A stretch of DNA of 64,000 nucleotides from Pyropia yezoensis (lineage: Eukaryota > Rhodophyta > Bangiophyceae > Bangiales > Bangiaceae), in NCBI GenBank assembly GCA_009829735.1, contig CM020620.1:22976020-23040019 (forward strand). The letters are read 5' to 3'. The notes below the pieces were generated by a model that was given only the letters and a program-made list of their open reading frames with translations, was not told where the DNA came from and made no database searches. This document shows positions 1 to 40,478 of the stretch, one piece after another (the stretch's first letter is position 1; every line of letters begins with the position of its first letter). Both the position numbers and the translations under genes were made by a program.

Positions 1-2
1 CC

Positions 3-5757: not shown

Positions 5758-5848
5758 GGTGCAACCGGGGTAGCAGGGGCGCCCCGTGCAGACAAGCCGA
5801 GGCCGGCTCGACCCGGTACGAGGAACGCTCGCTCGGACGAGCCAGGGA

Positions 5849-5871
5849 AGCGCGGGCACCCGCGCTTATAA
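5849..5871 (-). promoter_or_regulatory. putative antisense core promoter: TATA box plus 18-bp palindrome
   Basis: On the minus strand TTATAA (5866-5871) runs straight into a perfect 18-bp palindrome (5849-5866, AGCGCGGG-CA-CCCGCGCT), about 110 nt upstream of the aORF start. The Ty3-A2 copy keeps both features with a central TG in place of CA. The spacing fits a TATA-driven promoter for the antisense gene. There is no expression evidence. Confidence 0.55.
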
Positions 5872-6337: not shown

Positions 6338-6349
6338 AAGGAGGGGAAA
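6338..6349 (+). other. polypurine tract of Ty3-A1
   Basis: AAGGAGGGGAAA lies immediately before the TGTAGCA that starts the 3' LTR. Ty3-A2 has the matching purine run at the same place. This is the expected second-strand primer site. Confidence 0.85.
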
Positions 6350-15795: not shown

Positions 15796-15919
15796 TCAGT
15801 CGCAATTGTCACTGTCTTGGGCGTCAGCTGCTGTCGTCGCATCGTCTTGTTCCCGCACGTCCACCGTGTCGTCCCAGGTGTCCCCTTGGTCAAGCAGGAA
15901 GTCTTGCAAGCGTACACAG
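15796..15919 (-). pseudogene. C-terminus of a PIF/Harbinger-like transposase, split by Ty3-B
   Basis: On the minus strand this reads RLQDFLLDQGDTWDD... to a stop at about 15796, resembling the LHNFLL...D tail of DDE_Tnp_4/HARBI1 proteins. The frame continues, after removing Ty3-B and one copy of its CACAG duplication, into 25294-25326 (FVPSIIEC). So the retrotransposon entered the last part of a transposase gene. Nothing else of this transposase is left in the window. The short length limits confidence. Confidence 0.5.
15915..15919. repeat. target-site duplication CACAG of Ty3-B (partner 25289-25293)
   Basis: Identical pentamers abut the outer ends of both LTRs, and the interrupted transposase frame reads through when one copy is counted. 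Confidence 0.9.
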
Positions 15920-16390
15920 TGTGGCAGTATTGACCCCCAGGTAGGAAGGCAACACGTGCCATGCAAGGGGCGGCAGGCCACTAGCCTGATCCGTTCCTCC
16001 TCCTGCATTTGGGTCCGTATTCCCTAAGTTTGGGATAGTTAGCTTAGTAGTAAATCCAACTTGGATTTGAGGGTTTTCTGCATTTTTATCGTCTTGAATT
16101 TTCGTGTGGCCCGGTGGGCAGGTGCTGGGGTGGGAGATTCTGAGTGGCGAGATTTTGAGGGGACCCTGGGGGGATAAGGGGAGGGACAGCGGGGCTTGGC
16201 CCTGCGTCCCCGTCCCGACAAAGAAACTGTTGGCCCACACACCATCCTTTTGTTTGTCAGTGGGGGGTTTGCCCCACAACAGGGACAGAGTGTGTGCGAC
16301 TTGCACTTCTTCCGGTTCCCCCGACACGGGAGGCAGCCCTTGTACACCGCCCCAACTTGGGTGCCGTGTGTGCGAGTGGTTTTTGCCACA
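15920..16390 (+). repeat. 5' LTR of Ty3-B (471 bp)
   Basis: Starts TGTGGCAGTATTGACC and ends GTTTTTGCCACA. It aligns end to end with 24820-25288, with a handful of differences and small indels. I see no clear TATA box. Confidence 0.93.
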
Positions 16391-16392
16391 TT

Positions 16393-16407
16393 TGGTGGAG
16401 CAGCAGG
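16393..16407 (+). other. primer-binding site of Ty3-B
   Basis: TGGTGGAGCAGCAGG begins two bases after the LTR. The leading TGG is complementary to a tRNA 3' CCA, as expected for tRNA-primed minus-strand synthesis. I cannot say which tRNA. Confidence 0.7.
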
Positions 16408-16509
16408 GGACAGAGGTAAACTTTACCTCCGGGTGCACCCGGGTGTAGGGGGCCCTCTGTCTCAGAGGAACGGTGGACTTGGACCGTGTTATATGGATCT
16501 TCAGCCAAC

Positions 16510-18456
16510 ATGGCTAGCTCGGACCCCCCGTCTTCCGGGGAGTACACGGGTGACGCACGTACTTCAGTGCCTTTGAATACTGGTGAGACACAGGTGAGTT
16601 TACCTGGGGTCGCAGAGGGACTAGAGGTCCCTCAAGCCAGCAGTACTGGAAGTGCGGGCGGGCAACTGGCCACCCCGACTCAGTCGGGAGTTCACTCGGG
16701 TGACTCTTCTGGTATGGGTGGGCCGAAGTCTGGCCACCGCGTGGTTTACTCAACGGGAACGTCCCAAGGGGTGAGGACTGTCCCCGAGGGTTCCACTCGG
16801 GTTGGATCCAACTTTGGCATGGAGTCGTCGCCAACTAGGCTTTCGGAGGACGGCGGACCTCCGTTGGTCGGCGATGGGCTCGCGCCCGTGCCCCCGGTTG
16901 AGACCCCTGAGGAACGTGGTTACCCCTCAGGTGGACTCCCGGAGGCGGACCGAGACTCAACTGGAGTCGTCAATCCCCTCCTCGCGGAAACTGTCCGTCG
17001 GGAGGCGACCAATGTGTTGCGGCAGACTTTGCCGGACCTGGTGGTCACGATGACGAATACTATTCTGAATCAGATTGTGGCGAGTTTGCCAGATGGCCTT
17101 AATGTCCAGACCGGATCGGGGCTTTCGAGCCCACAGGCGCACGGGCAATCCCTCCCCACGCCTATCTCGGGTCGCCCCGAACTGGGGGCGACACCTGTGA
17201 CTCCCAATAAGGGAGCCACACCATACTCGGTGGGGCGTACGCCCTTCACGGGGGAGTTCCCCCCGGAAACGCCGGCGGCTACACCAAGCGCGCCGCGCCG
17301 GACTACAGGCACTGAGAGTGAACTTACCCCAGTGCCACAGCGGCTGTTCCCTCAACGTGAGGTGCCGCCCAAGATCCAGGTAGCCAACCCGGTCTACCAG
17401 AGGATCTTTGATTGTGAGACTTACGCCCTCCACAACAAGTCGGTGGCGAATGGTCCTGACCAGGCCCGAGCCATGGGCCGTGCCAAGAAGAATGCACTTC
17501 ACTCTTTTGGGCACAAAGCGGAGTGGGATGGAACTCCCCCCCTCCGTGTCTTTGAGTTCCTACGTCGTTTCACAAAAGCCTGTGACGACAATGCCATAAG
17601 TGAAGGCATGGCTTTTTACATGCTACAGGAGTTTACGAAGGGAGACCTGCGGACAGAACTTATGTCCGTCATGCCCAGCTCCTCAAGTGGAGGCGCTGGG
17701 GAGGTGACGTCCTATTTGGAGCTCGTCAACTGGTTGTTGAGGGCCATGGTTGATGAAGCGGCGCTGGCTTCTCAAGTCGAGGAGTTTACGCAAGCCCATC
17801 AGGAAGAGGCGGAGGACGAGATGTTCTTTGCAGAGCGAGTCCGTAAGCTCAACAATCTTTGTGGGTTTCTTCATCCACAAGCTGTTGTGAAGAGTCGGTT
17901 TGTGGAGAGACTCCATTGGTCAGTCCGGATGAAAACCCGGGAGCATAACACTGCCCGGGCGACCCTGGCCGAGTTGGCTAGGTTCGCCTACCGCAGAGGC
18001 GAGGCCTACCGCAAGTTGCGGGAGGAACAACGCCAGGAGCGTCAGTCCGAGTTGGCCAGGGAACGGGAGGAGGCGCGCCAGGCCAGAGAGTTGAGAGAGG
18101 CACGCCGAATACGCAAGAAGAGGATGGTAGCTGCCGTGGGAACTTCCCAGGGTATCTCTTCGTCTTCCCCAGTTGGGAAGACCCCTCCGGGAGCTAATAA
18201 TCGGTGTTGGAACTGCAACTCCGATGGACACTGGGCATATGATTGCCCCAAGTTGAGTAAACGCATCCAACAACTTGTTAAGAATGCGAGTAAGAAGTCG
18301 GCTACGAACGAAGTACGTTCACGCCGCGAGGGTGGGTCTCGACCGGTGGTGGCGGTCGCCTCACCCTTGGCGGAGGGGGCGGACACGTCGTCCTCGGACT
18401 CGTCGTCTTCCCCTCCGTCCTCAGATTCGGACGCCAAGTCGGCGGGAAACGAATGA
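16510..18456 (+). CDS. gag polyprotein of Ty3-B
   Basis: 648 codons from the ATG at 16510 (MASSDPPSSG); an in-frame ATG at 16486 is also possible. Residues 1-290 are Ser/Pro/Gly/Thr-rich and low in structure. About 290-520 is the capsid-like region with Retrotrans_gag-type helices (FEFLRRFTKACDDNAISEGM, then EEAEDEMFFAERVRKLNNLC). About 505-545 is a charged Arg/Glu-rich coil. A zinc knuckle CWNCNSDGHWAYDC (C-x2-C-x4-H-x4-C) follows near residue 568, and the tail is Ser/Asp-rich. No stops interrupt it. The stop TGA overlaps the ATG of pol (ATGA at 18453-18456), with pol in the -1 frame. It forms particles and packages element RNA in the cytoplasm. Confidence 0.9.
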   Translation: MASSDPPSSGEYTGDARTSVPLNTGETQVSLPGVAEGLEVPQASSTGSAGGQLATPTQSGVHSGDSSGMGGPKSGHRVVYSTGTSQGVRTVPEGSTRVGSNFGMESSPTRLSEDGGPPLVGDGLAPVPPVETPEERGYPSGGLPEADRDSTGVVNPLLAETVRREATNVLRQTLPDLVVTMTNTILNQIVASLPDGLNVQTGSGLSSPQAHGQSLPTPISGRPELGATPVTPNKGATPYSVGRTPFTGEFPPETPAATPSAPRRTTGTESELTPVPQRLFPQREVPPKIQVANPVYQRIFDCETYALHNKSVANGPDQARAMGRAKKNALHSFGHKAEWDGTPPLRVFEFLRRFTKACDDNAISEGMAFYMLQEFTKGDLRTELMSVMPSSSSGGAGEVTSYLELVNWLLRAMVDEAALASQVEEFTQAHQEEAEDEMFFAERVRKLNNLCGFLHPQAVVKSRFVERLHWSVRMKTREHNTARATLAELARFAYRRGEAYRKLREEQRQERQSELAREREEARQARELREARRIRKKRMVAAVGTSQGISSSSPVGKTPPGANNRCWNCNSDGHWAYDCPKLSKRIQQLVKNASKKSATNEVRSRREGGSRPVVAVASPLAEGADTSSSDSSSSPPSSDSDAKSAGNE

Positions 18457-21400
18457 CCGTTGGAGCTGGCCGTCCGAAGCTCACAACGGCAGCCTCGGCC
18501 AAGTGGGTCAAGAGGACGAACCAACGGTGCCGGATACTGCGGCGACCTAAAGGAGTCCGCCCACCTCGGGTAGGACTCCCCAAGAACGTAAACCCACGTC
18601 GGGTCATCGCGGTGCTGACGGGTGAGAACTTCCAGGTGGCTGGACAGGTGCAACTTGCCCCCGGCCGCGCCTGTTGTGCCCGTATCGTACTTGATACCGG
18701 GTCAGGAGCCTCCTTGATACGCAAGTCGCTGTTACCAAAGGAGATGAAGCTCCAACGCTGGAAGTCTAAAGCTGACCATCTGATCGATATCAATGGTGGG
18801 GTACTTCCCATCGTTGGTGCCGTGACCCTACCAACTAGGTTGGGGACCCATGAGGTCGACGTGACCTATGGAGTAGTTGAGATTATATCAGTACCCCTGC
18901 TTCTGGGTACCCCATATGTTGTTACACAAGTGCCTATGATTTGTGGTCCTGAGGATTGGGTTAAGTTGATGAATGGGGAAGCCATCCCCATCCTTTGTAA
19001 GGGAAAGTCTGTGGCTCCTGTGACAGTCTCACAGTCGAAGCCTGTTTGCTCTGTGAGAGAAGGGTCTACTGCTACCCTGCGTTTAGCCCGTAAAGTCACG
19101 TTGCCCCCCAACTCGGTGGCGCACGTTGACGTTGTAACTGATTATACGGGGAACGGGTTAGTGCACCCTCACCCCCGTCTTGCTCGCAAGCACCAAGTGC
19201 ATGTTGCCCTTGGCACGATGGACTCCAAAGCCGGAGTCCCGTGGAGGATCCAGGTGATGAACCTGAGCTCGTCGCCCAAGTACTTCCAGTCGGGGGCCAC
19301 GTTCGGCTATATCGACCAATAAGAGGGACCGGTAGTAGCGGTCACCCTCAACGCGGGCGCGAGTAGCGACCCGAAGTCCGGAAAGGAGAAGCATCAAGCC
19401 AAGTCGGCCGCCTCTCCTCGGCTCCATGAGAACATAGAGGGTGTCCCACCCAGGTTGAGGGTTCAAGTTGAACGCCTCTTGGACCAATACCACAAGTTGT
19501 GGGATGGTCAATTGGGACTCATGAGAGCCACCCAACACCGGATCGAGTTGAAGCCCGGTGCACCCCCCATACGCCAACAACCGTATAGGGGAGGACCCCG
19601 TTCAAGGGCCCTCGTTAAAGAGCAAGTTGCGCGCATGGACGCCCTCGATGTGATGTAGGCCAGTAACGCCGAGTGGGCGAGTCCGGTGGTTATCGTCCCC
19701 AAAGTTGATGGGACCCCCCGGTTTTGTATCGACTACCGTAAGATCAACGAGAGCACGGTGAAGGACAATTATCCCCTACCTAGGATGGATGACTGTCTGG
19801 ACTCTCTGGGGGAGGCAAACGTGTTCTCTACCCTAGACTGTAACGCGGGGTACTGGCAAATTCCCATTGCCCCGGAGGACAGGCATAAAACTACCTTTAC
19901 CTGTCACTGTGGTACCTACCAGTGCAAGCGTCTTTCGTTTGGCCTGTGTAACGCGCCGGCAACTTTCCAGCGCGCTATGGACATGACTCTGGCCAGAGTA
20001 CGGTGGCAGATCTGTCTCGTGTACCTAGACGATATCATTGTGTTCTCCCGAAGTCCGGAGGAACACATTGGCCATCTTGGCCAGGTGTTCAAGCTACTTG
20101 CTGACGCCGGTGTGTCATTGAAGGCGAGTAAGTGCCACCTCTTCACTCAAGAGGTGGAATACTTTGGACATGTTGTCCGTACGGGGCGTCTCAGTGTCAA
20201 CGAGAAAAACTTGAGGGCCATCCGTAAGGCTCAGTACCTCCGGACCCAGACCCAGATGAGGAGCTTCCTCGGGATGTGTAACGTGTACCGACGTTTCACC
20301 AAGAACTTCGCCAAGGTGGCGAAACCGCTGAATGAGGTTCGTGAGCTCAACGCTACCGAAGAACCTGCCTCCCCCAAGTCGGGTGGAGCAGGAATCCTTT
20401 GAGACTCTTCGGGACCTTCTGCTGAAGCCCCCTATCCTGGCTATTCCCAGGTTGGGAGGCCACCTCATCCTCGATGTGGATGCTAGCTACGACCAAATTG
20501 GTCGTGTGTTGCTTCAGCAGCAGCCGGACAAGGAGTACTTGCCGGTGGGATACTTCAGCAAGGGGCTGAACTCGGCCGAGAAGAACTACGGAGTCACCGA
20601 GTTGGAAGGACTCGCAGTGGTGTGGGCGGTGACGTCACTTCGCCACTACCTAGAGGGTGAGAAGCTCCTCATCCGCTGTGACCACCGTGCGTTGCAGTTC
20701 ATCTTTAAGACGGACTGTACGAACACTCGTCTCAACCGGTGGAGGGTGCGACTGGCACCCTTCAACTTTGATATTGAGTACCGACCTGGCAGGCAACATG
20801 CCCTTGCCGACGGCCTCTCTCGGGTACCTACCGAGGGGCTGGACACTAACCCAGTCGATGAAGACATCCCCATCGTGGGGGTGGTCACGCGCTCGGGTCA
20901 GGCGTTGAACCCCGAGGCGCCAGGGAACAAGAAGTACTTGCCCCTGTCCCTGGATGAGGTGGTGAAGGCCCAGGCCGAGGATCCCTTCAGCAAGTCGCAG
21001 AGGGATACACTGGATACAGTGGCGGAGACGCGGTTCTTTCTGGGAGATGACGGCCTCCTCATGAGGAGGGGGGTATTCCAGGGGACCGAACGACTTGTCG
21101 TCCCCGCATCCCTCAAGGACAGTATCCTTGAGAGGGAGCATAACGCTCCCACAGGTGGACACCTGGGGTCTAGTCAACTGTACCAGACCCTGAGGACCAG
21201 GTACTACTGGCCGTCCATGGTGGTGGACATCTACAGTTGGGTGGCTGCCTGCACAAGTTGTGCACAGAATCGTCTGATGGAACGGCGGCCTACTACGGCT
21301 ATGTTACTGTTCCCGGCCAATGAGCCTTTTGCCGCGTTGGCGATTGACATCCTTGGGCCGCTGCCAGTGACCGAGGAGGGCAACCAGTACCTCCTGGTTA

Positions 21401-22437
21401 TCTGTGACCGCTTCACGAAACTTACGCGAGCGATCCCACTGGCAGAGATCACGGCCATGTCGGTCGTTTCAGCCTTCCTAGATCACTGGATTGCCGCGTA
21501 TGGCATCCCGGACAGTACACTATCGGATAATGGACCGCAATTTGCGTCCGTACTGTTTCAGGGAGTGCTGGATATGTTGGGGGTTCAGGCAAACTATGCC
21601 ATCCCCTACCACCCACAAACTATTAGGCAGGTGGAGCGCTTCAACAAAACTATTGTTAGGCAGCTGCGCCACTATGTGAGTGAGCACGTGAAAACGTGGG
21701 ACCAATACATTTCTATTCTTACCACTGCCTACAACTCGCAGGTTCACTCATCTACCGGGGAAGTACCCCTCGCTTTTGTGACCCCCCGTCGCGTGCGGTC
21801 TATTGCTGTGCGGCAGTCGCTCCCAACTAGGGAGGATGGTGGCGGTACGCCTACTCCTACTGAGAGTAAGGCGGAGTTCGCTGCTAGGCTTGAACAACTC
21901 ATCCCTAAAGTCAGGGCTGAGATGGACAAAGCACAAAAGCGCTACAAGCGTACTTTTGACAAAAAGGTGCGCAACGCGAAGCATGTCCCCGACCAGGGTG
22001 ACTGGGTATTGGTCCACTCACACACCCCATCTGGGCGTAAGTTGGTATTCCAGACGAAGGGACCGTACCAGGTCCTCCGTACTGATGGGCGGCGCTTCAC
22101 CATCGAAAGTGACGATGGGGTCCGCACAGTGAACGAACAGGACGTGGTCAAAGTTGCACCACCGCCTGCAGGCGACCCAGCTTGGGCTCGTGCGTTGGAA
22201 GCGTGGCGCCTCCCCTCACTGCCTGCGGCCAAACAGGGCCCGCAGGAGTACGTTTTCGATCAGTTCATCGACCACGGCTGGGATGAGGACACTGACCGCC
22301 CCATGTTGAGGGTACGTTGGTTTGGTTACAAAGCCAAGGATGATACGTGGGAGCATGTGGAGGACCTTCCCGCTGAGAAGGACCGGGCGTACTGTGCCCG
22401 GAATGAGATGGACACTAACAGCCCTCCTTCAACGTGA
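18453..22437 (+). pseudogene. pol of Ty3-B (protease-RT-RNase H-integrase-chromodomain), broken
   Basis: Starts at the ATG overlapping the gag stop. Protease has VLDTGSGASLI near residue 80. RT has FCIDYRKIN and LVYLDDIIVF; RNase H has ILDVDA and ELEGLAVVWA; integrase has the GHLGSS...C-x2-C zinc domain, AIDILGPLP, LSDNGPQF and QVERFNKT, so the catalytic triad is complete. The C-terminal chromodomain-like part reads LRVRWFGYKAKDDTWEHVED. Breaks: TAA at 19320-19322 after the protease, TAG at 19656-19658 before the RT fingers, and a +1 frameshift between about 20332 and 20400 entering RNase H. From there 20332-22437 is open to the end. The stops at two domain borders could be real read-through points, but decay is simpler. 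Confidence 0.9.
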
Positions 22438-22548
22438 GGGAAGGCCGAACAACAGTGCCAAGAGAGTGCTTCAAGTCGAGGTGGTACGCAGAGTGGCTTT
22501 TTACTACAGCCCTAACCCTCACACTCTCACAACAAAGGCAGCTGCCAA

Positions 22549-24484
22549 CTAGGCATGCATACTAGACTCTTCAACCGTACGGCCCTCGCCCTCACGTGGA
22601 GGCGAGCGGCAAGACCCCCGGCGATAACGCTCCCCACCAGTCGAGGGGGCCGGCGGCTCCAAGTCGGACCCGTCGCGCCCCTCACGGTCGCGCAAGTGGC
22701 GACGACCGCGGCTGCTCTTCTGTTTAGTCTTACGCGCAAGTTGGCGACGCAGACGCCGGACCGACTCCGACTCTAACGTAGTCGAGGACTCCGAGACGGA
22801 GTAAGACAACTCGTCTTCCGACACGGAGGGAGAGCGCCGCGAGTGTCGGCGACGACGGCGAGGAGGCGAGTATGCCCGGCTCGCACGACGTTTGCCACGC
22901 CCAAGTGGGGCTGGATGGGGCATAATAGCCCCAATGCGAGCCAACTCGGCCGTCATAAGCTCCGCCACCGACTCGCAACTCGCGGTCGCCACTGCAGTAC
23001 GAACGCGCTCCTCAAGTTGAGGAGTCTCGGAAGTTTGAAGGGTTGCGGTCGACGCGGCCAACCAGGAAATGGTGCGCACCAACGTGGTGATCATCATCTC
23101 AGAGGTAAGATGCGTGGGCGGTAACACCAACTTGGAATATACCGTCAGGAGGGTGGCCCCCAAGTTGGGGGACACCGGGGTGGACGACTCAACGGCCACG
23201 CTAATCGGGATATCCCCGTGCGGCTGGTAGGGGACAGGAGGAAGCGGAGGGGCACGCCGAGGTGGCGGGGCCCGGGTGTAACTGCGACCCCGACTTGGGG
23301 CCCCCGCAGTGGGGTGAGTCATATGGTCATCATGTGAGGGCACGGCCATAACTATGGCCTTGTCCGGGGGTGGCGCAGTGTGGCGATCCACCCCCGGGGC
23401 ATACGGGTAGTCCCCGATGCCCAACCCCTCTTGTAGGACCACACGGCCGTCGTGAAGTTCACGAGCGACCCATACGAACTGGCGGAGTGTGCCATCGTCC
23501 ACGCGTGGGGCGGCGCAACTTGTGCTCGATACTCTCCCACTCGATAAACTTGTGGAGGCGGAGTATCTCCTCAAGTAGAGTGAGTTGTCCTGATGAGCAC
23601 CTCTCAGCAACTAGCTGAGGGGTGAGCTGTTCCAAACCTTGGATAAGCCGGAGGGGGAGATGCCAGAGCATCCCCCGCCGCTGAACACAAGACACCCAGG
23701 TCGACATGACCTCGAGGAGCCACTGGGTGGCCAACATGGCCCACACCAGGTGATCAGGGCCAGCCGTCAACATGACGGAGCCGAAGTGGTCAAGCAATCG
23801 TGGCAGCAACGCCGGGAACCCGTAGGGGACCTCAACTTGAGGCCACCACTCGGGCTTCGTCGGGTAGTACTGCTCCTTACTGGCAGCAGACTTCTGAGGA
23901 AACTCAAGTTGAGCCGAGGTCACCAAGTAGGGACCTCGCCGGATGTCCTTCTCCATCCGCACATCAAAGTGATGAGTGTGCGGATCGGCCTCGTGAGGGT
24001 ACGGGGGGCGAGTTGCCACCGCGTCCCAAGTAAAGGTCGGCAAGTCGCCGGGACCCGGGATAGTTCCCCCGCGGTCCACCATGGCCTTGGCCCGCTGTAC
24101 GTCTTTGACCTCCTCGTCGTCCAGGAAGGCAAACTGGTCCATCCTGAAGCCGGCAGGGAATCCGACCCTACGGGGATACTTCTCTCGTAGGCGGTCCCAT
24201 ATCCGACCCATCGCTGCGCCAAGTTGGCCACAGCGAAGAACAGTCAACCCCTCCTCATATAGAGGCCAAGCGGGGTAAAACTACCGCCCCAAGGCCTCAC
24301 GCGGGACAACATGTCCCGCCTCCGGGGGAGACCCCGCCGTCAACCCAAAGCCGGGTGACGCGGGAGTCCCATCCCTTGGAGCGATCGCGGAGCCCCCGCC
24401 GGAAGTCCCGGCGGGCCCTACACCGTAAGAGGTGTCCTCCATACGTTCGTCCAGGGAGTCCGTCTTCACCCCCGGAGTCACCAT
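22549..24484 (-). pseudogene. antisense additional ORF (aORF) of Ty3-B, unknown protein
   Basis: It lies on the strand opposite gag-pol, its stop 111 bp beyond the pol stop and its start about 320 bp inside the polypurine tract. From an ATG at 24484 the frame runs with one TAG (24281-24283) to about 23530, where a frameshift moves it to the frame ending at 22549. The first half is globular: EWWPQVEVPYG, then QRRGMLWHLPLRLIQGLEQL, then a Leu-rich helix ending LRLHKFIEW. The second half has a Pro-rich linker, a helical block and a very basic Arg/Ser-rich tail (RRRRRHSRRSPSVSE). The globular part follows the same order of Trp, FGSV, RR-x-G-x-L-x-HLP and LL..H..W motifs as the Ty3-A1 aORF. I do not recognise the family. 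The basic tail hints at nucleic-acid binding. Confidence 0.75.
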
Positions 24485-24806
24485 GGCTCTCCCCGAGTTA
24501 GGGAGAAGCAGCGCGGTTGCAGCTGCACGAGACCCACCTCGAGTTGAGGGGGGCTCGGATCGCGGGTAGATCTGTGGCCTCCCCAGCGTGGGGCGGCCCA
24601 GGGTAAGGTGAACAGGATGTGTTGGTGGTGGTGAAGTAAGTACCGATAAGAGCAAGCTGCCAAGTGGGCAAGCTTGAGGAGAGGGGCGGTCTACGTGACC
24701 GCCTCCACGTCCACGTGACGTACCAGGGGGACAGCACGTCGCGCCCCAAACGCTGAGACGTGCGTTTACGCACCCCCTCACAGGGCCGACCGGGTCGGTC
24801 GGAACT

Positions 24807-24819
24807 GAGGAGAGGGGAG
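24807..24819 (+). other. polypurine tract of Ty3-B
   Basis: GAGGAGAGGGGAG abuts the TGTGGCAG of the 3' LTR. Its position beyond the antisense ORF shows that the ORF is replicated as part of the element. Confidence 0.85.
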
Positions 24820-25288
24820 TGTGGCAGTATTGACCCCCAGGTACGGGGGAAACACGTGCCATGCAAGGGGCGGCAGGCCACTAGCCTGATCCGTTCCTCC
24901 CCCTGCATTTGGGTCCGTATTCCCTAAGTTTGGGATAGTTAGCTTAGTAGTAAATCCAACTTGGATTTGAGGGTTTTCTGCATTTATCGTCTTGAATTTT
25001 TGTGTGGCCCGGTGGGCAGGTGCTGGGGTGGGAGATTCTGAGTGGCGAGATTTTGAGGGGACCCTTGGGGGATAAGGGGAGGGACAGCGGGGCTTGGCCC
25101 TGCGTCCCCGTCCCGACCAAGAAACTGTTGGCCCACACACCATCCTTTTGTTTGTCAGTGGGGGGTTTGCCCCACAACAGGGACAGAGTGTGTGCGACTT
25201 GCACTTCTTCCGGTTCCCCCGACACGGGAGGCAGCCCTTGTACACCGCTCCAACTTGGGTGCCGTGTGTGCGAGTGGTTTTTGCCACA
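24820..25288 (+). repeat. 3' LTR of Ty3-B (469 bp)
   Basis: Partner of 15920-16390, with the same TG...CA ends and CACAG outside. The last 88 bp recur a third time at 25327-25414. Confidence 0.93.
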
Positions 25289-25326
25289 CACAGCACTCAA
25301 TAATGCTGGGCACAAACTCCTTTTCA
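25289..25326 (-). pseudogene. fragment of Harbinger-like transposase, upstream side of the Ty3-B insertion
   Basis: The minus strand reads EFVPSIIEC, in frame with the transposase tail at 15796-15919 once Ty3-B is removed. It is cut off on its right by an LTR fragment at 25327. Only about 35 bp remain. Confidence 0.45.
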
Positions 25327-25414
25327 GCACTTCTTCCGGTTCCCCCGACACGGGAGGCAGCCCTTGTACACCGCCCCAACTTGGGTGCCGTGTGTGCAAG
25401 TGGTTTTTGCCACA
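25327..25414 (+). repeat. 88-bp fragment of a Ty3-B-type LTR end
   Basis: Matches the last 88 bp of the Ty3-B LTR (25201-25288) almost base for base and ends with the correct TTTTGCCACA terminus. It is followed by coding sequence of the Ty3-C antisense ORF and not by a primer site. It is probably a relic of an older B-family insertion or of unequal exchange. Confidence 0.8.
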
Positions 25415-25891
25415 CTCGTGACGGCCCACGGGTTCTACCGAACTAAGAGGAGCGGGTTCTTCGTGGGTTGGCATGAGGCGGAGTTCCCCTCTTGCCCAGT
25501 CACCATTCGGGCGGCCCACTACCCACGAGTGCCCCCTTGGTGGTCGGCGGTTGAAGGCCCGTATGGCGCTATGGTGGAGATGCCCTCGTCGTTGACCTAC
25601 CTCAAGGGTCTCCTGTTGGCCAACAACGCTTGGGTGGGGAACGTCTTTCGGTCGGAGTGGGCCGTCCCTGCCGGTGCTTTCTTGGTGGATGAGTACCGCA
25701 AGGCCAGCCAACTATGGCTCTTTTCTCGGCCGCTCCGGCAGTGGATCCTCCGCGTGGGACTTGAGACGGTTTGTGTGGGCCCCGGCGGTGTCGACATGGT
25801 AGCCGTAGCAGAGTTGGGGGCGATGCTGGCCCTCCTTGACCATCTCTTACCTACGACGGCCTTCTCAGACCGCCTTAAGTGTGAGGACTAG
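25415..25891 (+). pseudogene. antisense additional ORF (aORF) of Ty3-C, 5'-truncated
   Basis: On the strand opposite Ty3-C pol and facing it. The frame from the truncation point runs to a TAG at 25889-25891 (about 150 codons). It shares with the Ty3-B aORF the segment WWSAVEGPYG (B: WWPQVEVPYG), the preceding AEFP...YP spacing, and following Trp/Arg/Leu positions. The N-terminal part has been lost at 25415. It ends sooner than the B protein, without the basic tail. Function unknown. Confidence 0.6.
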
Positions 25892-26366: not shown

Positions 26367-27607
26367 TCAGGCCCATGGGGGGTTTTGGTCCAGCGTGAGC
26401 GCCTTCACCAGGCCCACATAGTCTTCCACCACTGGCGCCTCCTCCAGCTCCACGTCCGGGTCGCAAAGGTCTTGGAGAGGGCCCCACAGCGCCCTAATCT
26501 CGTCCGTCGTTGGGGACACAGAGACGCCCACCCTGCGACAGTACTCGGCCACCTTGCGCTCGTCCACACCGTCGTGCGGCTCCCAAGTGTCCTCCTCGGC
26601 TGCGTAGCTCCACCAGCGTTCACGCAGCCACAGCGTGCCCTCCACGTCATACGCGTGGTCCACGAAGCGCTCCCAGGTAAGTTGGTGGCCTGTTTCCCGA
26701 TGGTCCCACGGCACCGCCACGCCCTGTGGCCCACGAAGGATGGTCGAAGAGTCTGCTCGGTGCTTGGGGGAAGGGGCGCGGGCCATGTTGTCCCCGCTAA
26801 CCCGCTCCGGATGGCCATCCATCATCACCGTGAAGGTGTGGTCGTCGCGTCCCACAATCTGGTAGGGCCCCAGGACCGTCTCGTCCAGCTTCTTGGGGTT
26901 CTGGATGTTGGCATCAATGTAGGCCCAATCCCCTACCCGGCGGGTCTTGTTCACCGGCCTAACCCGTTTATCGTAGGCCCGCTTGTACCTTCGTTGGGTG
27001 GACGCCAAAGCCTTGCGTACCCGATGGACCAGATTACGTGTGTGGGCCCGATGATACTCGCGGGCCGCTCTGGCCGTTTTGGGTACCTCCTTGGGGTAGG
27101 GCGTGGCCGGCATTCGCTCGAGGGAGAGGTTGCCGACCCGCTCTGGTACCACAAACTCGAGGGGGGCCACACCCGTACTCTGCTGCGGCCGTGAGTTGTA
27201 GGCCAACGTAAGGACAGAGACTAAGTAGTCCCACAACTCTTGATGTTCCGACACGTAGGCCTTCAACTGCGCCACGATGGTCCGGTTGTAGCGCTCCACC
27301 TGGCCCCGCGTCTGCGGATGGTAAGTCGTCGAGGTAAGGTGCCGGATGCCCAGCATCCCACAAAACCCGCGGAAGTAGGCGGAGGTTAGCTGCGGCCCAT
27401 CGTCCGTCAAGAGGGTGTCCGGCGGGCCGTAAGAGGCCACCCACGTGTCACAAAACGCCGAGGCCACCGTTTCCGCGTCCTCCCTTGGGATTGGGACCAC
27501 GCGGGTCAGCTTGGAGAAGCGGTCAACGATGACCAACAGGAATCGACTACCGCCGGCCGACACAGGGAAGGGGCCAAGCAAGTCCAAGCATACGTCCGTG
27601 AAGGGCT
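26367..27607 (-). pseudogene. pol of Ty3-C, distal part (integrase core and chromodomain-like end)
   Basis: Resumes just beyond the Ty3-D target duplication with EPFTDVCLDLLGPFPV (first catalytic Asp), then LLTDDGPQLTSAYF and HPQTRGQVERYNRT, so all three acidic residues are present. The GPY-type module includes GDWAYIDAN and LGPYQIVGRDDHTF. A chromodomain-like LRERWWSYAAEEDTWEPHDG follows, and then an extra acidic tail of about 60 residues. The frame is open from here to 26367. The first Met at 27683 belongs to Ty3-D LTR sequence, not to this gene. Confidence 0.88.
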
Positions 27608-27612
27608 CAGAC
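27608..27612. repeat. target-site duplication of Ty3-D (CAGAC; partner 34264-34268)
   Basis: CAGAC on the + strand (GTCTG on the element strand) abuts both outer LTR ends. The duplication sits inside the Ty3-C integrase gene. Confidence 0.92.
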
Positions 27613-28443
27613 TGTAAGGTGAAGCGCAGCGAAGCGCCGTCCGCGACCGCACACTCGTGCTCGCACGGTCCCTCGCTCGCCACCCTACACCCACCCTCAA
27701 CGCACGCGCGGTACGACGGCGGATACCCTACTCAGTGTCGGTCGGTCGCGCGCAACACGTGCGCGCGAAGTAGACGTCGGCGAAGATGACGGTTGCGAAG
27801 GGGATGAGCTTAACGTCGGTCGTTCTCGGGTTCTAGGGTTCAAAGGTTTTTATGTAGATGGGCTTGAGCCCTCCCTCCGTCCTCCACCCTCGGTCGCAAT
27901 CACGCACGCTTTTATACCCTCTGGCACACCCCTCGGGTCGCTCACAGGGCCCTTGGCGTAGTCCCTGCTGTTTGCCACACCAGGTGGTCCGAAAACGCAG
28001 GTCAGCACTCGTCGCGGCGCACCCCCCTCTCAGAAGGGTCAATCTGAGGGGGTGGGCTACTTGCAAGATCGTTCTTGCATACTATTGGTAAGCACGTTAC
28101 ACGCTCCCGAACGTTGTCCCAGAGGCTGGAAACGGGATATGCGATACTATTGGTTCCCGTCGAGCTATGGCAATTCCAGCACCATTATTGGCCTTCCATA
28201 ATGGGCCCTCTGAAGGGGTCCCAGGGCCACTGTAAGCCACGCATCCTGCCACGTGTCATGATAAACTCGTGGAGGATCTTTGGGGGATTCAAGATTCATC
28301 CGGAAGGCGTACGAAGCTTTCGGGAGAATCTAGAATCCACAGGATGCGGTCCGAAGAAGATCACGGATCAAGTACGGATGTAGTTAGCATGACATCAGTG
28401 GCTTGACGACCGAATTGGATCAAGTAAGGGTTGAACCTTTACA
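27613..28443 (-). repeat. 3' LTR of Ty3-D (831 bp)
   Basis: Same length as, and nearly identical to, 33433-34263. It carries the TATAAAAG box at 27909-27916 (minus strand). Confidence 0.95.
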
Positions 28444-32816: not shown

Positions 32817-33432
32817 CCTTGCTGTGTCAGATCAACGCTCCTGCTCTTCGCGTCCCAGAGGAGACTGCCTGGATCCAGTTACGGGCACACGGCCACTGGA
32901 CCAAGGGAGGCTGCTCTGAAGCGCTACGACCAGACGCGCTGTGCACTCCCGTGTTAGGGAAGGCCACTTGAGTGGGAGCTTACGAAGGCTTAGCCCGGGA
33001 AGGTCCACAGTCCAGTCACCTGCGGCCCTGTGGGGGACGGACCCGGTCATGTTAGGGAGCACGAACCTCCCGGACCGAGCAAGCCTGTACAGGGACGCGT
33101 CGCAGAGAAGCCCAACCGTCAACCCACAGTAGTGACCCGCCCCGCACGCGCGCGATGGTGCGCCCCGTTGGAACCGAACCGACCCCCCCCACCAGCAGCA
33201 CACGGCCGACTGGGGTGACGGGACGAAGGGAGCCCCGTAAGGGAAGAACCCACCCCGAATGGCACGATGGCCCGGTAATATAAGGCCAACCTGAACACAG
33301 TGGGGCCCCGCGACAGACCCGGGGAGAGGCCGGCGAGCCCTCAGGCTGCCTTACCGCGCAAAAGCGCTCGGTATCTGGGGCGCATGCACGCACGCACGCA
33401 CGCAGGGTAGGAAACTATCTGAAGCGACAAAA
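32817..33432 (-). other. 5' leader of Ty3-D, no gene seen
   Basis: About 615 bp between the 5' LTR and the zinc-finger ORF. Next to the LTR the element strand reads TTTTGTCGCTTCAGATAGTT; no TGG-type primer site is visible. A short run of CGCACGCA repeats lies near 33385-33402. Confidence 0.55.
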
Positions 33433-34263
33433 TGTAAGGTGAAGCGCAGCGAAGCGCCGTCCGCGACCGCACACTCGTGCTCGAACGGTCCCTCGCTCGC
33501 CACCCGACGCCCACCCTCAACGCACGCGCGGTACGACGGCGGATACCCTACTGAGTGTCGGTCGGTCGCGCGCAACACGTGCGCGCGAAGTAGACGTCCG
33601 CGAAAAAGACGGTTGCGAAGGGGATGAGCTTAACGTCGGTCGTTCTCGGGTTCTAGGGTTCAAAGGTTTTTATGTAGATGGGCTTGAGCCCTCCCTCCGT
33701 CCTCCACCCTCGGTCGCAATCACGCACGCTTTTATACCCTCTGGCACACCCCTCGGGTCGCTCACAGGGCCCTTGGCGTAGTCCCTGCTGTTTGCCACAC
33801 CAGGTGGTCCGAAAACGCAGGTCAGCACTCGTCGCGGCGCACCCCCCTCTCAGAAGGGTCAATCTGAGGGGGTGGGCTACTTGCAAGATCGTTCTTGCAT
33901 ACTATTGGTAAGCACGTTACACGCTCCCGAACGTTGTCCCAGAGGCTGGAAACGGGATATGCGATACTATTGGTTCCCGTCGAGCTATGGCAATTCCAGC
34001 ACCATTATTGGCCTTCCATAATGGGCCCTCTGAAGGGGTCCCAGGGCCACTGTAAGCCACGCATCCTGCCACGTGTCATGATAAACTCGTGGAGGATCTT
34101 TGGGGGATTCAAGATTCATCCGGAAGGCGTTCGAAGCTTTCGGAAGAATCTAGAATCCACAGGATGCGGTCCGAAGAAGATCACGGATCAAGTACGGATG
34201 TAGTTTGCATGACATCAGTGGCTTGACGACCGAATTGGATCAAGTATGGGTCGAACCCTTACA
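33433..34263 (-). repeat. 5' LTR of Ty3-D (831 bp)
   Basis: On the element strand it starts TGTAAGGGTT and ends CACCTTACA. The TSD lies outside. It drives the element. Confidence 0.95.
33729..33736 (-). promoter_or_regulatory. TATA box in the Ty3-D 5' LTR
   Basis: TATAAAAG on the element strand, about 530 bp from the LTR start and 300 bp from its end, conserved in both LTRs. A typical position for the U3/R promoter. Confidence 0.6.
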
Positions 34264-36705
34264 CAGACGCAGGAAAAAGGCGGAGGGGAGCGGTCCGTCT
34301 TCGGCCCCTCACTTTGCCCTTGGCACAGGCGTTGCAATTGGCCACAAAGTTGTAGACATCAGCCACCATATACTCCCAATAGTAGGCCCGCCGCATGGAG
34401 GTGTACATCTTATTTACCCCCGGGTGGCCAGCGTGGGCCGGGTTGTGCTCCAACGTTAGGACCTCTTGGCGTTGGCCCTCGGGCACATTCACTTGGACGG
34501 CCTTGTCAAGGGGGCTCAGCCGCACGAGTAGGCCGTCGGGAGTCTCCCCAAACCTTGAGTGGGTATTGTTGTCCATCTCGGCCCGGATCTCGATGAAGCG
34601 TGCGTCCGTCGATTGGGCCCTAATCAGACGTTACACAGTGAGGGGAGGGAAGCCCTTGTTCGTCTTAGGATCGGGGGCCACCCAGCCACGAGCAAGGTTG
34701 GCCAACGTGAGTAGACAGGGGATTTCCTCCGGGATGGGCTTCGTGTCGACCCCCGTCGTCTTGAGCCTTAACATTGTGTCAGCTGCATGATGGGCCGCGC
34801 CGGCCCGCGTCTCCACGATGTAGTCAAACTCGGCCAACCGTAGCCGCCACTGGGCCAACCGGCCATGTGCTCCGTCCATGTGGAGCATCCACTTGAGGGA
34901 TGTGTGGTCCGTCCTCACGATGAAACGTGTGCCTAAAAGGTAGGGCCGCAGGAGGAAGAGGGCCCACACTACGGCCAGACATTCGCGCTCGGTGGTACTG
35001 TAGTTCCTCTCGGCTTGCGACAGGGGCCGACTCCAGTACCCAACAAGTTTGAGGCCACCCTCTGGATGCTCTTGGAGTAGGACACAGCCAGCTTGGGTAG
35101 CACTGGCGTCCGTGTCGACCGTGTACTGCCCCTTTCGTCGTGAAAGGGCCAAAACGGGTGTGTGGGTCAGTCTCCACTTGAGATCCTCGAAGGCCCTCAG
35201 CTGCTCCTTCGTAAACTCGGGCAGCGGGTCGGAGATCTTCGTACTGGTGAGGGCCGTCAAAGGCCGAGCCACCTCCGCGCAGTCCTTCACAAACCTCATA
35301 TAGACATTGCACATGCCTAGGAAGCTGCGCAGGCCCTTCTTGGCCTTGGGCGGCTCCGCTTGCCTAAGGCCCACGAGATTCCTCTCGTTCACTCGGACCT
35401 GCCCCTTGCCGACAATATGGCCTCAGTACTCGACCTCCTCTTGAAAGAGGAAGCACTTGCTGGCCTTCAGGGATACGGCGGCCTTGGCTAACAGGGAGAA
35501 GACCTCTTCGAGGTGGCCCACGTGTTCTTGGGCCGTCCGGAGAAATACGCTCACATCGTCCAGGTAAACCAGCACCGTCTTCCACTTGAGGCCCGCTAGT
35601 AGCATGTCGATGGCCCTTTGGAAGGTAGCAGGTGCGTTGGTAAGGCCAAATGGAAGCCATACGTATTTGTAGGTCCCCTCATGGCAGGTGAACGTCGTCT
35701 TGTCTTGGTCCTCGACGGCCACAGGGATGTGCCAGTAGCCCATATTGCATTCCAACATTGAAAAGACGGTGGCCTCCCCCAGGAAGTCAATGCAGTCGTC
35801 CATCCGTGGGAGGGGGTAGGTATCTTTGACCGTCATATCGTTGGACCGTCTATAGTCCACGCAAAACCTCGGAGTGCCGTCGGATTTTGGCACGATAACC
35901 ACCGGGAAGGACCACTCGGCTTGCGAGGGCCCAATAACCTCCAACTTGAGCTGCTTGGCCACCTGCTTCGCTATCAACTGGCGGTGGTAAAGTCCCGTCC
36001 TGTAGGGCTGCGACCGTACCGGCTTGGCCCCCGGCGTCAACGTTATACGATGGGGCGTGACGTCCATACGGCCTAGCTGGCCATCCCATAATCCCCCGTA
36101 GCGGGCCACCAAATCTCGTACGGCCTCGTGCAAGTCGGGTGGGATCAACTCGTAGGCCATCCGCGGCATCTTAGGGCCGTCTTGATTTCGAGCCTCCGCT
36201 TCACTGTTCGTATGCGAAGCGTCGTTGGCCTGCCCTGAGTCCAATTTGGGCCCTTCCGCTTCACCGGCTTCGACTCTTGGACCTTCAGCCAGCGTCCCGA
36301 TTGGGGCGTCCCCTTCGCCAAAGGGTGAGCACGGCCCTTCGAAGGTCTTGTAGACAGGTCCATCGTAGGGCTCAACGAGGCCAACCGCATACCCCTTGGG
36401 GAGATTAACAGGCCGGCTGGTGATGTTGGTGAGGAAGAACTTAAAGTCCCGCCGGGTCTTGACGTTGGCCAGCGCCTTGTGCAGCAAGACGCCCTTCTCG
36501 GCCATCTTAACAGGTCTCTCCCACAGCAGGCACCGTTCAGTAGTCCCGCATCGACTGTAGACGGCCTGAATCGAGTAGGGCTCAATCGTGACGGACTTGG
36601 AGAGGCACAGGGCCGCCGGGTCGACCCGCGGAGAATTGCCATGCTTGTTTTGGGCCGGCAGGTCGTTGCCCTCCCATACCCTGATGGCCTCAGTAAGGGC
36701 CCCGT
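34264..36705 (-). pseudogene. pol of Ty3-C, proximal part (RT-RNase H-integrase zinc domain)
   Basis: One reading phase throughout with two in-frame stops. It begins next to the Ty3-A2 LTR with the linker that follows protease (LPKGYAVGLVEPYDG), then RT with FCVDYRRSND and LVYLDDVSVF; a TGA at 35423-35425 lies just after the YLDD-bearing palm, and the frame resumes through thumb and RNase H (VDTDASATQAGCVLLQ, TERECLAVVWA). TAA at 34631-34633 is followed by the integrase zinc domain (H...GHPG...CNACAKGK), which stops at LFPAS where Ty3-D was inserted. gag and protease are missing at the upper end. RT position usually MDxxxAF-like is slightly altered (ECNMGYWHIP). Confidence 0.88.
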
Positions 36706-37067
36706 GGTAGCATAATAGGTATTCGCTGCACGTCCACACTCAGGGAACACTCACCAAGGGGGATCGGCACCAACGTCACCGGGAGGCCAAGGTTGCTGTC
36801 CTTGGAGCGCAAACCACGGAACCAAGATGGGAGCCCAAATGGGAGGGGTTTGTTGTCCTTCCTTGGCCGGCGGTGGATTCGCCGCCGGCCCCCTCGTTAG
36901 AAACCCTCGGAGACACTACTAACTACCCTCCACCCCGAGATGCAAGTCCCTCTGGTCATACGTACCTCATAGATACCGTGACCAGTACGGACTCCCAGAT
37001 TGAAAGTAAAGGGTTAGAAGTAGCCCCCCTAATATAGGGTCACAATACGGTCAACCATGTTGCTACA
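36706..37067 (-). repeat. 3' LTR of Ty3-A2 (362 bp)
   Basis: On the element strand it starts TGTAGCAACATGG and ends TATGCTAC, with a C replacing the expected final A. It is the homologue of 6350-6712. The TATAA of the A1 LTR is altered here. Confidence 0.88.
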
Positions 37068-37080
37068 TTTCCCCCCCTTA
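37068..37080 (-). other. polypurine tract of Ty3-A2
   Basis: The element strand reads TAAGGGGGGGAAA directly before the LTR. Confidence 0.85.
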
Positions 37081-37543
37081 GATTCGGCCCGTCCTCGGGT
37101 CGAGTTGCATTCGGGTTACCGAATGTAAGTGGGTCGCGTGACCGTTTACCAGTCGGGTGGGGCTTTGCGCCCTGTCGCGACAGACACCCCTTTTCGAGGT
37201 TGTCTGAGGGGGGTGCCCCCCTTCACGTGGTACACACACGATCCGTTTTCCGGACCGTTGAATTCCCGATGCGGGTTTTTGTTCACGACCCCCCTTTCCG
37301 AGGGGTGGTGCAAGCGGATCCGCCACCAGGCGTCTGGTGGTAAGGGGGCCCCGCTCGTGTGGACGATTGAGGGGGGGGCGGGGGTTGCCCGCGTTGCGTG
37401 GGGGCGGTTGGGGGTGACCCCCCTTGATTACCCCGTATTGGGGGGTGCGTGGCCCCGATCCAGGTGCCTGGGTGGAGCGTCCTCGTAGCTCGGCTGGCGC
37501 GGGTCGTCCCGCGCTGCCGTATCGCTCGTGCTGAGCTGTGTGG

Positions 37544-37566
37544 TTATAAGCGCGGGTGCCCGCGCT
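37544..37566 (+). promoter_or_regulatory. putative antisense core promoter of Ty3-A2 (TATA plus palindrome)
   Basis: TTATAA (37544-37549) joined to AGCGCGGG-TG-CCCGCGCT (37549-37566), about 107 nt before the aORF ATG at 37656. The stem is identical to the A1 copy and only the two central bases differ. Confidence 0.55.
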
Positions 37567-37655
37567 TCCCTGGCGCGTCCGCGAGCATTTCTTGTACCGG
37601 GTCGAGCCAGCTGCGGCTCTCTGGCACGGGGCGCCCCTGCTACCCCGGCTCCACC

Positions 37656-40085
37656 ATGTCGGACCCGAACGTACCCGGGGGTGAGGACGACCTCCTGCTT
37701 GAGGAGGAGGAGGAGGTGATGCAGGACGACGTTCCCGTCTCCGCCACCGCTGCCGAGTGCTTCCTGGCGAGCTCGTCGGACGAAGACGACCGGGTAACCG
37801 TCCGTGTGGCCCCGGAAGGCGCGCCGGGCGGGTTGTCGTCCGTGTGCAGCGGCACGACGGCTCCGTCGGGTGGCGGTCAACCGCGTGTAGCGGCTGCCCC
37901 TACTCCTACTCCTCCGGCGACCCGGATGGCCCCTGTCGCCGGTGCCGGCGCGGCTCTACCTCAAGACGGCGCAGCCGGTGTGTCGGGCGGTCGTGGTGGC
38001 GCCCCGGTCGGGGCGGCGGGTCAAGGCGGTGCGGGTGCCCGCCCGGTTGGTGGTGTGTCCGTGGGGGCGGGTGACGGGTCTACCCCCTCCGTCCCCGTGG
38101 TGCCCACGTCGGGCCCGGGTGGCGGCGATGCTCTGCCCGCGGTGCCGCGGGCGACAAGTTGTCAAGACGTGTCTTCTCCGATGGCGGTGGACTCCGGGAG
38201 CTACTCCGGGCGGGCGCCCGCCCTTCTTCTTCCTCCTCGGCCCCGTGCGCCTACGGCGCCGGCCCATCTGCCGGTGGGGCTTCCCCCGGCGCCCCCGATT
38301 CTTCCTGGGCCCGCCCGGGTTGCCCCGCTGGGTGGCGGCGTCGCCTTGGCGGCGGGTCAACCTGCCGTGTCGGTGTCCGACTTGGTGGCTCGGGTCCGAG
38401 GCCTAACTGTGCAGGAGTCCATGGACTCCGCTGGGCGGATGCGGGTGGATTCCACCAGAAGCGTCACCGTGGAGAGTCCTCCCGGCGCGTCAGGGCGGAC
38501 CCGAGTTGGGAGCGGGAGTTGGTGCGGCTGGTCAACCAGCCGAATGCGGTCCGGGTGGAACATCACTGGATTCTGAGTCAGCCGGACGACCGGCATGCGC
38601 AGCTCTGGCGCACCCGGGTGGGGCGGGGTGACGTCTTCTTCGACTCCGCCTTCGGGGTCTGTGACTTGGTTGCCCCCGCGTTGCCGCGGGAGGTTGACTA
38701 CCCGGCTAGTGCTCGGGGGGTTGCGTCAGCGGCGGAGCCCGTGGCGTTTGGGTCGACGGTGGGCGACACCGGCCGGTATCCCGGGTTTGAGTACTTCCCG
38801 GGGTATCCCCGTATCTGACGTTCACGGCTCCTTACCCATCTATGACGGGGTTGAAGTCGGCGTCGAGCAGGCGACGCAACCATGGTGTCATGGCGGATGT
38901 GTTCCGCACCGATATAACGTGTGCGTTGCAGACCGGTAACGGTCGCGCGCCGGTGTGCACTCCCGTGCGCCCGCCTCTGTGGCAGGAGGGGTGGGAACCC
39001 GCCCCTGCTTTCCGGTTTGACACCTGCTCCTGTCTCCGATACTTCGGGAGCGTGTTGGCCTCCCGGCCGGTCCACCCGTTGCAGGGGACCTTCACCCTTG
39101 AGGTTACCCTCGGGCAGGCTTCCTCCTTCTTGCTGTCCGTCCGCCGGCAGGGGCGCCTGTTTTTTTTCATCTTCCGACGGGTGTCCGTCGGCATATCGGG
39201 CAGCTAAGCGTGGACATGATAACTGCCAAGACCGGGTTGGCCCGGGAGTTCGAGGCCCTGCTGGCCGTTCACGACGCCGTGAACCGGGCTGGGGTGTTGA
39301 CCCTTCCCCCGTACCGGGATCCGCAGGCCGGGGCTGCCCCCTTGCCTCGTCACTCGTTGCGCATCCGGCGTACTCAGCCGGGTGAGCCCAATTGCCGTGG
39401 GTGGGCGTCCACCGAGGCTGTTCCTGACTTGGGTATCCCCATGGTTATCCATGACCCTCTTCAGATCCTCGTTCCATGGTTCGGTAACCCGATACCGTCG
39501 GCGGTTGGCCGTCGTCCCCGAGAGTGGGACTCTGCGGGTGGGGAGCGTGAGGTGTCCCGTCGTCGGGCGGAGCCCCGCCGGGTTTACGGTGGGGCCCCTT
39601 CAGTGGGGTCCTACCGGGCCTCGTATCAGCCGCCACCGGCTCCGGTGGTAGCCGTGTCGGCTCCTGTGGCTCCTCTGGCTGCGCCAGTGTCCTCTTCCGC
39701 CCCGGTCATGCGTGACGGGGGTCCCCGTCTATGGTATGAGGGCGTTGACGCCCTCATTGCCCGCGAGATGCGGGAGGGTCTCTCTGTTAGCTGGGGGGAT
39801 ATCCCCCCAGGTGCTGCGCTGGTTGGGTCCGCGCGTTGCTTCGGTGGCGAGCTGGACCGCCTCCAGACAGCTCTGGAGGACGTGGAGGCTGGCCGCAGCA
39901 CCCTCGTTCAGCTACGCAGCGAGGTAACTCGGGCGATTGACCGTCGCGAGATTGCCAACCGGTATAGCATGGAGGTGTACGCGTTTACGCGTGAGTGGCC
40001 TCCCTCAGTCAGCGGGTCTACCCACAGAGGAGTGCTATTGTTTGTGAGGGAGAGGGACCCGGTGACCCTTATGGTGACCGGGTAG
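37656..40085 (+). pseudogene. antisense additional ORF (aORF) of Ty3-A2, frameshifted
   Basis: Homologue of the intact A1 protein, from MSDPNVPGGEDD (good ACCATGT start context). Acidic and Pro-rich N-terminal parts are open to about 38450, where the first frameshift falls. A second follows at about 38810-38840, and a third at about 39160 in a run of eight T where A1 has a shorter run. The last segment (39210-40085) is open and runs slightly past the A1 stop. The reading order of domains is the same as in A1. No function is assigned. Confidence 0.85.
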
Positions 40086-40478
40086 TAGTGAGTATAAACT
40101 CATCCCCCGCCGGGGCGTTTGCATGATACCAATGCCTGCCTTTGGGGAGTACACCGTCTGACCTAGCCGTGGCCTGCCTCGGTTCTTTCTCGCGCCCCCA
40201 ACCCATCCTGGTTGTTTAACACTCATGAAGGTCAACCTTCCTTGGTTTGTCACTTGCCCCATGGATGAAGGTTTACGTTGGTGTAAGCCTCAGGTTACCT
40301 TGAAATTATTGGAGTTAGGCAAACTAAGTGGGCTACTGACTTTAACAGGCTTACTTGAAGGAGATGACTAAGTCCGCTCCAACTTAGTGAACCTAAGTCT
40401 TGCCGAATCCATGTGACACCCTACTTAGTAGGTATAAGCCTCACCCCCCAACAGCCGAAGTCGGTGTCGGTTGGGTTG
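40086..40478. other. convergent spacer of Ty3-A2, no gene
   Basis: 393 bp between the aORF stop and the pol stop. It is AT-richer than its surroundings, with remnants of the CTTAG/CTAAG hairpins seen in Ty3-A1 (around 40370-40410). The sequence is more diverged than the flanking coding parts. Confidence 0.5.

Follow-up and report, generated by a model that had tools for sequence, protein, structure and literature searches.

An antisense protein gene between pol and the 3' LTR of Ty3/gypsy retrotransposons in the red alga Pyropia yezoensis

Analysis of Ty3-B, a Ty3/gypsy retrotransposon of Pyropia yezoensis, revealed that the open reading frame located on the opposite strand between pol and the 3' LTR (aORF) is a protein gene under purifying selection from its ATG to its stop, with a strength like that on pol. 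Taken together, the results make it reasonably likely that Ty3-B is part of a clade of red-algal Ty3/gypsy elements equipped with a further antisense protein gene in this interval. What the widespread and conserved antisense ORFs of LTR elements do is a long-standing puzzle; here, the hundreds of copies, the diverged families, the selection that begins at the ATG and the presence of Ty3 neighbours that lack the gene make the question testable by comparison. The window, i.e., the whole stretch of 64,000 nucleotides analyzed here, lies on C3 of the genome searched (107.5 Mb in 11 contigs, with C1, C2 and C3 of 43.6, 34.3 and 29.4 Mb, respectively).

Organization of Ty3-B and its antisense ORF

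Ty3-B (15920-25288) is complete, with two LTRs, a purine tract and a CACAG target-site duplication that was read directly at 15915-15919 on the left and 25289-25293 on the right. The 5' LTR (15920-16390, plus strand, 471 bp, TG...CA) and the 3' LTR (24820-25288, plus strand, 469 bp) were assigned by pairwise identity, which amounts to 97.7% across 473 aligned columns. On the plus strand follow gag with a CCHC zinc knuckle (16510-18456; PF00098, E = 1.2e-05), the 648 codons of which are open in the window copy, and a protease-like ORF (18453-19322; PF13650, E = 0.032, under the cut-off). The gag stop overlaps the start of the protease ORF in the sequence ATGA at 18453-18456, which could allow termination-reinitiation. 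The reverse transcriptase (RT) piece (19659-20402, plus strand) was named on the basis of its 59% identity to the RT of family A, the pol of which matches PF00078. It is followed by a piece carrying RNase H, integrase and a weak chromodomain match (20332-22437, plus strand; PF17917, PF17921, PF00665), the chromodomain match at the integrase C-terminus being under the cut-off (PF00385, E = 0.00088). The pol of the window copy is interrupted: the frame of protease and RT meets stop codons at 19320 and 19656 and ends at 20400, where pol resumes in another frame.

The aORF itself (22549-24484, minus strand) is broken in the window copy. It is separated from the polypurine tract (24807-24819, plus strand, direct reading) by a stretch (24485-24806, minus strand) that holds 77 open codons in intact copies. 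An earlier note, made from the letters of this DNA, had described LTRs, gag and pol on the plus strand, a minus-strand ORF, a purine tract and CACAG outside, all of which can be read in the window; likewise, the head-on orientation that it reported is present, with the pol stop (22437) facing the aORF stop (22549) at a distance of 111 bp. Its description of a single 1.9-kb ORF starting at 24,819 had to be revised in two respects. In the window copy an 8-bp deletion at about 23,500 and an in-frame stop at about 24,283 disrupt the frame, so that the open runs between stops measure 353, 273 and 199 codons, and the ATG common to the copies is found at 24,484, with the codons upstream of it free of coding constraint. 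Just past the 3' flank, an 88-bp LTR end from another Ty3-B copy (25327-25414) abuts the aORF remnant of family C, pointing to a previous insertion at almost the same site.

Distribution of the aORF among Ty3-B copies and selection on its codons

The aORF is present in most Ty3-B copies, as judged by exact words in a sample of C1. In the whole genome, the word joining tract and LTR start was counted 977 times, the mid-aORF word 900 times, the aORF-end word 314 times and the pol-end word 137 times, while a second pol-end word, derived from the sequence of the window copy, occurred once. Among the first 100 tract-LTR sites listed (C1, to 9.73 Mb), 71 had the mid-aORF word at the expected place and 7 more had the aORF-end word, adding up to 78, with neither word at the remaining 22. 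In the reverse direction, the tract-LTR junction was found at 70 of 96 mid-aORF words of the same sample. Since the rates in both directions agree, the 22 misses look like word drop-out, and the aORF-end word stood beside 11 of 15 pol-end words on C1 to 9.73 Mb. A minority of copies without the aORF may exist; however, as far as the check proposed in the earlier note could be run with exact words, it brought to light no group of copies devoid of the ORF, in agreement with its view that the ORF moves with the element. Comparison of the best 40 pol-end matches with the best 40 aORF places showed that 14 of the former adjoin one of the latter, the other 26 lying outside the comparison.

For the analysis of selection, the genome was searched with the aORF region, and 27 of the best 40 of 1534 candidates, ordered by their similarity to the window copy rather than drawn at random, were examined (L001-L008 and L021-L039, with L001 being the window copy). 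The aORF runs for 647 uninterrupted codons (647 aa) from the common ATG in 16 of these 27 copies, is open but truncated in L039, and has stops or shifts in the other 10, including the window copy. LTR pairs of eight Ty3-B copies were 94.0-99.8% identical, which indicates that some copies moved recently.

Variants among the 27 copies were divided into singletons, which mostly represent post-insertion decay, and shared variants, which occur in at least two copies and were mostly inherited through active elements, and the expected nonsynonymous and synonymous counts were derived from the three-base context of each change. Variants present in 2-4 copies comprised 26 nonsynonymous and 59 synonymous changes (omega 0.23) and those in at least 5 copies comprised 6 and 12 (omega 0.28), as compared to 288 and 170 for singletons (omega 0.73) and 25 and 14 for changes private to the window copy (omega 0.85). 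The contrast between shared and singleton variants was significant (Fisher p = 5e-9), and third codon positions accounted for 60 of 86 variants in 2-4 copies and 13 of 18 in at least 5 copies. These omega values of shared variants answer the dN/dS check named in the earlier note, as they are not near 1. By part, shared-variant omega was 0.20 for residues 67-330, 0.26 for residues 331-510 and 0.31 for residues 511-647, and 0.75, on 18 variants, for the N-terminal tail. As yardsticks, shared variants gave 0.25 for a pol piece (23 copies), 0.18 for protease (12 copies) and 0.60 for gag (11 copies); since gag, an undoubted gene, scores 0.60 by the same method, importance cannot be ranked by omega alone. 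The 77 open codons upstream of the ATG showed a shared-variant omega of 0.82, with 10, 7 and 9 variants at the three codon positions, and the change from 0.82 before to 0.23-0.28 after the ATG indicates that the protein starts there (window position 24484). For the antiparallel frame, in which third positions coincide with those of the aORF, omega was 0.27-0.30, as expected from geometry, and in intact copies the plus strand opposite the aORF is open for only 191 and 260 codons. In family A, the aORF was stop-free at 44 of 57 genomic places (best 57 of 27597 candidates), and 12 copies of these best 57 gave an omega of 0.37 for shared variants (47 nonsynonymous, 58 synonymous) and 0.67 for singletons.

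The encoded protein and its relatives

The aORF protein comprises about 650-790 aa, with a tail rich in Pro, Ala and Gly at its N-terminus and a core of about 180-230 residues common to the families. The HLP stretch mentioned in the earlier note is present, and so is its Arg/Ser-rich tail. In family B the C-terminal tail contains 26% K+R and 15% S, and the corresponding part of family A only 12% K+R, which makes the Arg/Ser tail a family-B feature. The protein matched no Pfam family above the cut-off and no PDB sequence at E 1, and no named relative outside Pyropia was found in Pfam, PDB sequences, the protein databases or one IMG/VR scan. DUF6214 was considered for the family A aORF and dropped (E 0.013, under the cut-off). 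Three protein-database searches, each scoring the 8000 candidates that share most words, returned the relatives P0004, P0007 and P0008 (94-96%), and three proteins of the bangiophyte red alga Pyropia vietnamensis are 43-54% identical to the family A aORF. The statement of the earlier note that the aORF is not recognizably the plant antisense domain held up: PF04195 did not match the protein up to E 10 and had no candidate in the genome at a first look, which may miss distant members. Rfam gave no match at gathering scores within the window, and scanning the sequence upstream of the aORF for promoters with a bacterial model, ill-suited to an alga, returned nothing.

Related genes are present in two further families of the window. 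Family A occurs as two copies in opposite directions, pieces of which are 85-97% alike. In copy 1, an intact aORF of 789 aa (3388-5757, minus strand), related to that of family B, is located after pol, which ends at 2933, and before the LTR; in copy 2, a broken aORF (37428-40085, plus strand) faces pol (40479-44678, minus strand). Beside the latter copy, a 430-codon ORF (45678-46970, minus strand) matches DDE_Tnp_4 (PF13359, E = 5.3e-08), a nuclease of DNA-transposon type. Family C retains an aORF remnant (25415-25891, plus strand) that faces an integrase ORF (26367-27731, minus strand), and its pol seems to be split by element F, with the halves at 26367-27731 and 34259-36739; the repeats of element F are found at 27608-27907 and 33428-33727. 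The aORFs of families A and B are related by BLASTP (E = 5e-8, 23% identity over 230 residues) and by hhalign (probability 86, E = 5e-6, 182 columns), where the probability in 30 shuffles was at most 1.6; hhalign E-values were 1.2e-4 for B-C and 0.12 for A-C. With the family C remnant as query, 150 genome places (150 scored of 1824 candidates) were matched with E to 3.1e-5 and identities of 22-100%, and some of these lie inside Ty3-B copies, e.g., C1:22684061-22686343 (match at C1:22685114, E = 1.7e-6).

Identities between RT pieces were 69% for B-C, 59% for A-B and 59% for E-F, and 26-38% between the two groups; A-C identity was 40% over a longer piece that includes protease. A chromodomain is clear in E and F, and none was detected at E 0.01 in families A and C. 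The aORF is absent from both canonical chromoviruses of the window, E and F, in which the gap from pol stop to LTR (about 11 bp and about 560 bp, respectively) is too short for such an aORF. Within this small sample, the aORF follows one pol clade, with three families carrying it and two lacking it.

Palindromic words, possible functions and known systems

The palindromic 7-mer CAASTTG (CAACTTG or CAAGTTG) occurs 20 times in Ty3-B as compared to 0.9 expected. Per kb, it is found 4.1 times within the body of the aORF, 4.2 times within the LTRs and 0.5 times within RNase H-integrase, and it is lacking from the 331 bp upstream of the aORF; elsewhere in the window it was found once in copy 1 and twice in copy 2 of family A, twice in E, not at all in F and once between 48 and 64 kb. 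Around centers such as 16060, 21257, 23016, 23164 and 23836, a constant CAA(C/G)TTG core is combined with variable symmetric arms, and in 17 of the 20 words the complementarity continues into the flanks (on average 2.35 pairs vs. approximately 0.33 by chance). The B aORF contains 7 words vs. 0.89 under codon shuffling (maximum 5 in 200), and all B coding pieces together contain CAACTTG 12 times vs. 1.70 and CAAGTCG 12 times vs. 1.63. In a general palindrome census (arm of at least 6, loop 0-4, 60 codon shuffles), Ty3-B yielded 10 palindromes vs. 3.9 after shuffling in the aORF, 6 vs. 2.3 in gag, 3 vs. 0.9 in RT, 5 vs. 2.7 in RNase H-integrase and 0 vs. 1.0 in protease. In family A (1-6700 and 36700-47000), palindromes with varied cores numbered 29 vs. 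5.8 in the pol of copy 2, and 19 vs. 4.9 in the aORF and 15 vs. 2.7 in a pol piece of copy 1. Family C showed no excess (2, 2 and 2 vs. 1.5, 1.0 and 1.6), and the counts were 0, 1, 1 and 2 vs. 1.2, 0.7, 1.1 and 1.8 for E and F and 25, 2 and 1 vs. 17.1, 2.2 and 3.0 for host ORFs. In the window, families A and B carry both the gene and the palindromes, E and F neither, and family C, which is old and fragmentary, retains a remnant of the gene and shows no palindrome excess.

Two interpretations of the palindromes were rejected: as selected RNA stems, because double-changed pairs that are still paired numbered 0, 1, 0 and 1 vs. 64, 35, 30 and 26 broken pairs in four gene sets, and as a specialty of the stretch before the B aORF, because a pol stretch of equal length has more. 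Shared third-position variants were rarer in the palindrome arms of the family A aORF (2 of 92 vs. 61 of 697; p = 0.024, uncorrected and in one of four gene sets), and no such rarity was seen in the arms of the B aORF, gag or RNase H-integrase. The palindromes may be of mutational origin, e.g., due to template switching by the reverse transcriptase of this clade. Alternatively, the aORF might be the trans-acting half of a self-recognition system, the protein binding palindromes, of CAASTTG type in family B and of other types in family A, across its own element, coding parts included, and thereby shielding or activating its own family. We regard this as unlikely. Enrichment of a family-specific word is clear for family B, whereas the top single word of palindrome-rich family A does not exceed that of E and F combined (z 4.9 in both), which speaks against this reading; the palindromes permit, without proving, such self-recognition of the VANC type.

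By analogy with Grande gene23 and with the DNA binding proposed for TRP28, the aORF product would most likely be a nuclear, trans-acting accessory regulator of its own element. The aORF would probably have a transcript of its own, arising in the 3' LTR or the adjoining 330 bp, and there is a nearly even chance that its protein, brought into the nucleus by the basic tail, works in trans on the DNA or RNA of the element and favors expression or survival of the element, as has been suggested for antisense proteins of plant elements. The head-on layout with pol and the antisense RNA roles proposed for such elements (PMC7264820, available in part) would also suit a transcript that matters in place of the protein, with complementary RNA restraining or silencing the element and the ORF being incidental; but selection tracks codons, stops at the ATG and equals that on pol in strength, which an RNA-only role leaves unexplained, so that this carries little probability, although an RNA role in addition to the protein may exist. 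It is improbable that the protein serves in particle structure or entry, either as an Env-like protein or as a second Gag-like protein. The aORF occupies the env position and its basic tail could bind RNA as nucleocapsid does, but the strand is opposite to that of env, the best 19-residue hydropathy in three aORF relatives (1.5, 1.4 and 1.4) reveals no transmembrane-like stretch, and profiles show no similarity to Ty3-B gag (hhalign E 0.08 and 0.28), for which reason an origin of the aORF from gag was rejected as well.

Regarding a distant membership in the plant Retand antisense family (TRP28, PF04195), place and strand are alike. Judged by eye, without an alignment, the aORF core may also resemble TRP28. 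The PF04195 searches described above, which used the sequence profile only, speak against it, as does the fact that TRP28 is described from flowering plants only in the text available of PMC11963269, and we consider such membership quite unlikely. Least credible, and very improbable, is that the aORF was captured from the host and merely travels along as a passenger: extra retroelement genes can be captured host genes (PMC7264820, in part), but this gene is found in three element families with diverged copies and tracks the pol clade in the window, and the searches made found no host relative.

The reading as a nuclear accessory regulator can be set beside several known systems. A class of additional ORFs in antisense orientation, located in the interval from pol to the 3' LTR (aORF-3R), has already been reviewed for plants and fungi, with Grande, RIRE2, Retand, PvRetro13 and Boty as examples (PMC7264820; PMC11963269; both available in part); families A, B and C of the window share the strand opposite to gag-pol and the interval between pol and the 3' LTR. 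The Ty3-B aORF resembles this class in place, strand, presence in most copies and conservation like that of other element proteins, and differs in its red-algal host and in having no detectable PF04195 similarity, the other members being set beside it by description. As judged from the searches made, the layout known from plants and fungi would thus be combined with a red-algal protein without known relatives outside these algae. A literature search on Pyropia or Porphyra Ty3 elements and red-algal antisense ORFs, with subscription papers mostly out of scope, gave nothing on point. Plant analogues are reported to be nuclear, and Grande gene23 is nuclear and has its own promoter, according to the accessible parts of PMC7264820. 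TRP28 of Retand, for which DNA binding was proposed, is likewise a lineage-wide antisense gene in the 3' region of its element; by contrast, Retand elements occur in flowering plants, where they form a non-chromovirus lineage, and PF04195 was not found here (PMC11963269, in part). HBZ and APH-2 of HTLV are similarly encoded by antisense genes at the 3' end of a retroelement and act as nuclear regulators (cited in PMC11963269, in part), whereas their host is unrelated and they are set beside the aORF by description. Other algal elements possess self-directed accessory proteins with ParB-like or DNA methyltransferase domains, as described in part of PMC12477816.

With respect to self-recognition, the lower A-B identity of the aORF (23%) than of RT (59%), together with the family-B word, would fit a VANC-like system. 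VANDALs are DNA transposons and are not described as LTR elements. As a possible mechanism only, VANC of Arabidopsis VANDAL offers an extra element gene combined with dispersed, family-specific short words, VANC21 binding YAGTATTAY and VANC6 having the words AGTTGTCC and AGTTGTAC (PMC5735166, available in part). The VANC words are located in non-coding tandem repeats, whereas those of Ty3-B are palindromic and in coding parts, and the likeness is one of description. If true, a retrotransposon would here be equipped with a VANC-like system, and palindromes serving as binding sites would show how a retrotransposon can recognize itself.
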